Position numbers and translations under genes: made by a program. Shown here piece after piece: positions 47,649 through 49,076 of a stretch of DNA of 64,000 bases (its first letter is position 1; the number at the start of each line of letters is the position of its first letter). The DNA is from Magnetospirillum sp. WYHS-4 (GTDB lineage Bacteria; Pseudomonadota; Alphaproteobacteria; Rhodospirillales; GLO-3): the NCBI GenBank assembly GCA_039908345.1, contig JAMOBD010000003.1, forward strand, positions 1 to 64,000, in the 5' to 3' direction. The notes below the pieces were generated by a model. The model ran no database searches. It saw only the letters and a program-made list of their open reading frames with translations, and was not told where the DNA came from.

Positions 47649-47773
47649 GTCTTCAGGCTCCCTTGGCTCGCGGAAGGGGCGGATTATAGGCAGGAGGGCT
47701 TCCGGCGCAAGGCGTTTCCAGGCCCCTTGACGCCTGCCGAAAAGGCTGCAACAAGAGCCGCCGCGGACGGTAT

Positions 47774-47838
47774 CGTCCGCCGTGGACGGATTTGGACCGC
47801 TTGCCACCACGCAAAACGCCGGCTAAGTGGGCTCACCG
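47774..47838 (+). promoter_or_regulatory. SAM-II-like riboswitch upstream of metK
   Basis: The RNA shows the order of conserved elements of the SAM-II (SAM-alpha) riboswitch. Stem P1 is CGTGG (47781-47785) with CCACG (47807-47811). The internal loop holds ATTTGGACCG and CTTGC. After P1 come AAAACG and GCTAA (47822-47826), followed by GGGCTC, which can pair imperfectly with GGACC to make the pseudoknot. SAM-II usually precedes metA or metX; here metK, the SAM synthetase, follows 62 bases later. Binding to SAM is inferred from pattern only. Confidence 0.6.
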
Positions 47839-47900
47839 ACGGACGGCGAGGCCCCGAGGGTCCAACAGGACGTAACCTTACCTAGCGAGAGGGGTCAGCC

Positions 47901-49076
47901 ATGTCGAAGAAGGACTACCTGTTCACCAGCGAATCCGTGTCCGAAGGGCATCCGGACAAGGTCGCCGACCGCATTTCGGATGCCATCGTCGATACCTACC
48001 TGACCGCCGATCCCCATGCGCGCATCGCGGTCGAGACGCTCTGCACCACCAACCTGGTGGTCCTGGCCGGCGAAGTGCGCGGCCCCGCTTCCATCACCCA
48101 TGAAATGCTGGAAGACGTGGCCCGCAAGGCCATCAAGGAAATCGGCTACGAGCAGGACGGATTCCACTGGAAGAAGGCCCGCGTGCAGGTGCACGTCCAT
48201 TCCCAGTCGGCCGACATCGCCCAGGGCGTCGACGCCGCCGGCAACAAGGATGAAGGCGCGGGCGACCAGGGCATCATGTTCGGCTATGCCTGCGACGAGA
48301 CGCCCGAACTGATGCCGGCCCCGATCCATTATGCGCACGGCATCCTGCGTTCCCTGGCCGACGCCCGCCACACCGGCTCGGAGCCGGGGCTGGAGCCCGA
48401 CACCAAGAGCCAAGTTACGCTCCGCTACGTCGACGGCAGGCCGGTGGGCGCCACCTCGGTGGTGGTCTCCACCCAACACGCCGCCAACCTGACCCAGGAC
48501 GATGTGCGCGAAATCGTCCGCCCGCACGTGATGAACGTCCTGCCCGACGGCTGGATGTGCGCCGAGCCCGAATTCTACGTCAACCCCACCGGCCGTTTCG
48601 TCATCGGCGGCCCCGACGGCGACACCGGCCTGACGGGCCGCAAGATCATCGTCGACACTTACGGCGGCGCGGCTCCGCACGGCGGCGGCGCCTTCTCGGG
48701 CAAGGACCCGACCAAGGTCGACCGTTCGGCCGCCTATGCATCGCGCTACCTGGCCAAGAACGTGGTCGGCGCCGGCTTGGCCGCCCGCTGCACCATCCAG
48801 CTTGCCTACGCCATCGGCGTTTCCAAGCCGCTGTCGGTCTATATCGACACCCACGGCACCGGCCAGGTGGACGAGGACAAGCTGTCCGCCGCCCTGCAGG
48901 AGATGGTCAACCTGAGCCCGCGCGGCATCCGCGAGCACCTCAAGCTCAACCGCCCCATCTACGCCCGCACCGCGGCCTACGGCCATTTCGGCCGCTCGCC
49001 CGACGCGGACGGCGGTTTCTCCTGGGAAAAGCTGGATCTGGTGGACGGCCTGAAGCGGACTTTCGGCGCCAAGTGA
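47901..49076 (+). CDS. metK: S-adenosylmethionine synthetase
   Basis: MetK joins methionine and ATP to form SAM. The 391-residue protein has the motifs [34 protein letters not shown] (ATP loop), [25 protein letters not shown] and KNVVGAGLA. It is preceded by a SAM-II-like leader, a sensible feedback loop, and a GAGGGG ribosome site. It overlaps trmB by four bases. Confidence 0.98.

Follow-up and report, generated by a model that had tools for sequence, protein, structure and literature searches.

A probable SAM-II-type riboswitch variant, with G in place of A47, upstream of metK in Magnetospirillum sp. WYHS-4 and its relatives

The SAM-II riboswitch (SAM_alpha; RF00521) is an S-adenosylmethionine (SAM) aptamer known upstream of metA and other methionine genes (PMC1273637). 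It combines a P1 hairpin with an H-type pseudoknot and bears a UUU in loop L1, the motifs UUGC and CUAA, and an A-rich L3; its targets are metZ/metY, metA or metX. The residues U10-U12, U20, U21, G22, C23, G42, C43, U44, A45, A46 and A47 are reported as completely conserved, with U11 and U21 facing the sulfonium, U44 contacting the adenine, and A47 the amino and carboxylate groups of the ligand (PMC3764141). The subject of this report is a leader of the same design in front of metK, the SAM synthetase gene, in a stretch of 64,000 nucleotides from Magnetospirillum sp. WYHS-4 (contig JAMOBD010000003.1, positions 1-64,000), referred to here as the window and providing all coordinates. The leader carries a SAM-II-type pseudoknot at 47781-47830 and typifies a metK class that shares the hairpin, the pseudoknot and the loop motifs of SAM-II, but that differs from it in having a continuous pseudoknot one layer shorter, G in place of A47, another expression platform and metK as its target.

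Three further systems bear comparison. The SAM-II long loops RNA (RF01726), described from Bacteroidetes and marine sequences (PMC2864571), is the Rfam model that scores the window highest (24.5 bits), as it does several relatives (up to 36.8 bits), but its consensus GCUAAAG keeps the A and all metK-class members fall below its cut-off of 44. SAM-V, of the SAM-II superfamily, has a triplex pocket of the same kind and acts as a translational OFF switch (PMC6061858); it hides the Shine-Dalgarno sequence beside the pseudoknot and keeps A50, the equivalent of A47 with the same role (PMC6061858), whereas the metK class has a separate anti-Shine-Dalgarno strand some 25-40 nucleotides upstream. The SAM/SAH riboswitch (RF01727) also lies upstream of metK in alphaproteobacteria, namely Rhodobacterales (PMC2864571), but has a different core sequence.

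The metK leader of the window is probably a cis-acting riboswitch of SAM-II architecture, which would act as a translational OFF switch and place metK under feedback by SAM. The element is conserved, P1, P3 and a competing helix covary, P2 pairs consistently, the association with metK is exclusive, and the ribosome site closes in calculation. Comparative evidence supports the element and its alternative helices; we infer from it SAM as the ligand of the putative aptamer, the direction of the switch and the translational level of control. Conservation extends from P1 (47781) to the metK start codon (47901); the features of this unit, and the gene itself, are as follows.

47781-47785, plus strand: P1 5' strand, CGTGG (P1 covariation)
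47786-47796, plus strand: L1, triplex strand, with the invariant UUU at 47791-47793 equivalent to SAM-II U10-U12 (85 copies; equivalence from PMC3764141)
47792-47798, plus strand: anti-anti-Shine-Dalgarno strand TTGGACC, 5' arm of the competing helix (sequence, conservation, covariation)
47797-47803, plus strand: P2 pseudoknot 5' strand, CCGCTTG (P2 pairing in 81 distinct sequences)
47807-47811, plus strand: P1 3' strand, CCACG (P1 covariation)
47812-47821, plus strand: L3, A-rich linker (AAA conserved in the family)
47824-47830, plus strand: P2 3' strand, TAAGTGG, with G47827 at the site of A47 in SAM-II and A50 in SAM-V (84 of 85 copies; PMC3764141, PMC6061858)
47829-47833, plus strand: P3 5' strand, GGGCT, with two G in common with P2 (P3 covariation)
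47850-47854, plus strand: P3 3' strand, GGCCC (P3 covariation)
47850-47863, plus strand: element X, anti-Shine-Dalgarno, GGCCCCGAGGGTCC (calculated opening energies, 20 clusters)
47859-47865, plus strand: GGTCCAA, 3' arm of the competing helix (sequence, conservation, covariation)
47887-47894, plus strand: Shine-Dalgarno region, GAGAGGGG (position just 5' of the start codon)
47901-49076, plus strand: metK, methionine adenosyltransferase (TIGR01034, 498.2 bits against a cut-off of 309.4)

A first-pass annotation, made from the letters of the window, had proposed a SAM-II-like riboswitch here on the strength of its element order, and the order P1, U-rich L1, P2 5' strand, P1 3' strand, A-rich L3 and GCUAA is indeed present. 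The loop of the aptamer reads GGAUUUGGACCGCUUGC, the A-rich linker is followed by GCUAAGUGG at 47822-47830, and UAAGUGG (47824-47830) forms seven pairs with CCGCUUG (47797-47803) in an H-type pseudoknot. The same annotation had noted that TTGGACC is fully complementary to GGTCCAA, which holds exactly at 47792-47798 and 47859-47865, and that this helix competes with the pseudoknot. In their full forms the two are mutually exclusive, with C47797 and C47798 shared between them and U47792 and U47793 drawn from the triplex strand. Two things are added to that picture: A47 is replaced by G, and P3 joins the competing helix in masking the anti-Shine-Dalgarno strand.

When metK was located in 60 sampled genomes of the same order and its leaders were read on the correct strand, the core was near-identical in 36, and two more carried degenerate forms (L027 and L028). 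These leaders (L027 in G009; L028/L119 in G051) keep P1 and L1, or parts of them, while the GCUAAGUGG half is lost or degraded, and constitute natural broken versions. An alignment (A1; 31 sequences) and a model (R1) were made from the sampled metK leaders. At E<=0.01, R1 matched 254 of the order's 317 genomes, with ordinary metZ elements and some weak matches counted in. Where genomes were examined, the strongest match lay upstream of metK and a second, weaker one upstream of metZ, although family f18 showed the metZ kind only. A scan by pattern alone over 84,980 species, each represented by a single genome, returned 79 loci, 78 upstream of metK and one at a contig end, their labels nearly all Rhodospirillales, Rhodospirillaceae, Thalassospira, Magnetovibrio, Terasakiella or unplaced alphaproteobacterial assemblies. 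All 100 distinct leaders collected precede metK, the only two further matches both lying at contig ends, and members also occur in some other alphaproteobacterial orders. This exclusive association supports the feedback on metK that had been suggested at the outset. Because the core is near-identical in 36 of the 60 genomes and the seven-pair competing helix covaries, more than chance is at work: the idea that the likeness to SAM-II arose by chance in a single genome, as the sub-threshold Rfam score might suggest, is almost certainly wrong, being refuted by conservation across about 20 families and by covariation.

Alignment of the metK leaders of relatives, a check that the first-pass annotation had proposed, revealed covariation in P1 and the competing helix and consistent pairing in P2. 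The pair counts of P1 and P2 and the pocket bases were taken from an alignment of 85 copies (A2). In P1, 99.5% of cells are paired and three pairs changed on both sides (CG/UA, GC/AU, UA/CG). In P2 (81 distinct sequences), 98.6% of cells are paired and one pair changed on both sides, the changes being mostly Y and R that keep pairing against a constant GUGG. This constancy is partly a selection effect, since A1 and R1 were chosen by a CUAAG-GG signature; the search still admits other forms, namely canonical metZ matches and divergent members. The fifth pair of P3 (GGGCU/AGCCC) occurs as all six standard pair types, with 29 cells changed on both sides against 14.4 in shuffles. The fourth counted pair of the competing helix is C-G in most leaders and U-A in L057, L181, L214 and L060, a compensation that falls in three sequence clusters, while the last pair is U-A in L080; the helix's own strands outperformed cluster-swapped strands in all but 3 of 5000 permutations. 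This conservation and compensation support the competing helix as an alternative state, as first proposed.

The same data could be accommodated differently if the TTGGACC/GGTCCAA helix were part of the bound aptamer, with P2 split into UUG/UAA near the ligand and UGGACC/GGUCC outside it, and P3 an insert in the pseudoknot strand. Canonical metZ SAM-II elements have GACC/GGUC directly after GCUAAAA, so that the downstream GGUCC could be a displaced strand, and the competing helix is both conserved and covarying. Such an arrangement is nevertheless distinctly unlikely, as the GUGG that immediately follows UAA is paired in almost every sequence, leaders that lost the competing helix (L013, L021 and L046) among them. 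Moreover, no L1 nucleotide would then be left over to span the groove, and the ribosome site would be open with SAM bound, the wrong direction for feedback.

For the favored riboswitch, the platform would work as follows. When SAM is scarce, the loop strand UUGGACC would pair with GGUCCAA and P3 (GGGCU/GGCCC) would form, together hiding GGCCCCGAGGGUCC and keeping the metK ribosome site open. When SAM is bound, P1 and the seven-pair P2 would lock the loop strand and take up the two G that P3 also uses; freed in this way, the C/G-rich strand would pair with the Shine-Dalgarno region, and translation of metK would fall. Element X (GCCC..GGUCC), which P3 and the competing helix otherwise mask, is able to pair with the Shine-Dalgarno region; examples are CCCUCGGUC/GAUCGGAGGG, CUCCGGU/ACCGGAG in Thalassospira, CCCCG/CGGGG in Magnetovibrio, and GGCCCC with GGGGTC (47891-47896) in the window. 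In 19 of 20 clusters, forcing the aptamer state made opening of the ribosome site more costly (mean 11.1 versus 7.4 kcal/mol), and it did so in 17 of 20 when compared with a pseudoknotted ON state. Blocking X lowered the opening energy by 3.0 kcal/mol on average, versus 0.26 for other segments of equal length, in 19 of 20 clusters, making the closing strand-specific. These calculations support a translational OFF switch as predicted by the folding model. A transcription terminator was rejected as the platform, there being no intrinsic terminator on the plus strand of the window leader, unlike the metZ leaders. That the leader is a structured RNA serving no metabolite, such as a protein site or an element governing mRNA stability, is very improbable; the P0 hairpin (see below) and P3 are generic features and aptamer function is putative, but the pocket bases of SAM-II are retained, no gene other than metK is a target, and the ribosome site is where the alternative helices meet.

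Set against the riboswitch interpretation are the Rfam scores, the base at the A47 site, several leaders devoid of the competing helix, and parts of the folding calculations. At the curated cut-offs, no SAM-II model matched the window, and RF00521 gave no match at its metK leader, so the Rfam scan that had been suggested as a check failed in its strict form. RF01726 has a sub-threshold match at 47781-47816 (24.5 bits versus a cut-off of 44; E=0.037 in a 901-base search), which is its sole match in the whole genome (E=0.036). At a relaxed threshold, the best scores of eight among ten relatives lay between 22.0 and 36.8 bits (RF01726 or RF00521), and L027 and L028 had no SAM-II match; twenty further metK leaders include a single one, L223 from another order, that clears the Rfam cut-off, with 40 bits. 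Neither RF01727 nor SAM-V matched the window or the ten relatives up to E=10. In all, 1 of 31 metK leaders checked reaches the curated cut-off, versus 14 of 14 metZ elements (46 to 81 bits with RF00521; two diverged elements of genome G123 had no match). Rfam was dropped as the sole test, as relatives have the same element despite the failed score, and SAM-II-like identity is instead supported by element order, pocket residues and covariation.

As for the pocket, P1, the H-type P2 and the SAM-II residues U10-U12, U20, U21, G22, C23, C43, U44, A45 and A46 are all found in the metK class: U44 occurs in 84 of 85 copies, the others are invariant, and G42 is kept in 77 of 85. The base that contacts the amino-acid part of SAM, A47, is instead G in 84 of the 85 copies; the sole exception, L027, is without that half of the element. 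This G can form a Watson-Crick pair with C47800. In SAM-V, inosine at the equivalent A severely reduced binding (PMC6061858). The replacement therefore places canonical SAM-II membership, and even the ligand, in question as judged from sequence: either the amino-acid end of SAM would be held differently in the metK class, or the ligand would differ. One such possibility is a SAM-II-like fold without the layer that reads the amino acid, sensing decarboxylated SAM or another adenosyl sulfonium; the retained contacts to the adenine (U44) and sulfonium (U11, U21), like the loss of A47 and the SAM-V result, agree with it. Yet it is unlikely, given the strict association with metK, whose product is SAM, and the possibility that the G itself or extra L1 bases could give new contacts. 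Furthermore, G stands for A47 (GCUAAGCGG) in L115 too (G222:C128:35864-35919), a terminator-bearing metZ SAM-II element that is apparently an intermediate form; this element suggests that the change is compatible with methionine control. A broader and doubtful proposal, to be entertained tentatively, is that a widespread alphaproteobacterial class on the SAM-II scaffold lost the amino-acid-end layer and now reads SAM anew or another adenosyl-sulfonium compound such as decarboxylated SAM.

Leaders L013, L021, L046 and L114 keep P2 or most of it without the competing helix, and the unconstrained nested fold of the window leader has no P1. Strand blocking generally lowers opening energy, so that the aptamer-state calculation alone is no proof and blocking of X serves as its control. 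In the window itself, opening energies were 11.8 for the aptamer, 8.6 for the nested ON and 13.0 for the pseudoknotted ON state; the latter is as closed as OFF and only the nested state is more open, so that, if the model holds, the ON state of this leader has to be nested. The pairing of X with the Shine-Dalgarno region is strong, but covariation of own versus swapped clusters was not significant (530 of 5000).

Many of the genomes with the metK element also carry an ordinary SAM-II upstream of metZ, usually with a terminator, in which A47 is A. These elements have GCUAAAAGGUC, usually with a stem and then a U run, while metK elements have GCUAAGUGG; the genome of the window has a metZ-like gene without a SAM-II leader. 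Leaders L114 and L121 (G103) bear CUAAGAGGUCC with an ACCU/AGGU-type pairing directly after, a form between the metZ and metK types. Genome G123 holds diverged copies (L124, G123:C14:27066-27118; L133, G123:C7:22566-22618; and G123:C17:66756-66809) in which UUG/UAA is changed to UCG/UGA and the GAUUU strand is absent, with P3 and the downstream layout the same, as read in L124 and L133. These lie apparently upstream of metF and of a UroD/corrinoid-methyltransferase-like gene (names assigned by eye; the fragments had no NCBIfam match), and possibly have a changed ligand. When the remainder of the order was searched for the diverged form, no genome but G123 had it.

The remaining features of the window locus surround or overlap the core.

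47726-47756, plus strand: probable promoter, CTTGACG then ...TGCAACAAG (read from sequence)
47763-47780, plus strand: P0, 5' hairpin GCGGACG GTAT CGTCCGC adjoining P1 (sequence; stems in leader clusters versus shuffles)
47860-47871, plus strand: P4, optional hairpin GTCC-AACA-GGAC (sequence; weak overall support)

A strict consensus scan did not return the promoter at 47726-47756; metK in relatives is likewise preceded by the block CTTGACG...GCAACAAG. Hairpins of varying sequence adjoin P1 on its 5' side in many lineages and exceed shuffles in 9 of 20 leader clusters. P4, which shows a three-way change GGAUC/GAUCC/GGAUC in L057 and L181, was considered as the main switch and rejected as essential, being poorly conserved. 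An extra CGCCG/CGGCG stem (47817-47821 with 47844-47848), present in this leader only, could hide the P2 3' strand. The upstream neighbor of metK is a divergent purE-like gene on the opposite strand (by eye), and the same genome contains a second MetK-like gene (G000:C41:25510-26694; 43% identical) without a metK-class leader.

Since the defining pocket base A47 was tested and is absent, the metK class is set outside canonical SAM-II and filed here as a new, non-canonical variant of the SAM-II superfamily. No account of a SAM-II-type metK class was found in the open-access literature, subscription papers and supplements lying outside that search. A 2014 survey of methionine regulation recorded SAM_alpha only in Rhizobiales and Rhodobacterales, mainly upstream of metY, and none in Rhodospirillales (PMC4239095), a gap in the latter order that the present class would fill. 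It would also represent a direct feedback loop of SAM on SAM synthetase in a large bacterial group, and its natural variants, which stand beside ordinary SAM-II elements in the same genomes, allow the role of A47 in SAM-II to be tested.
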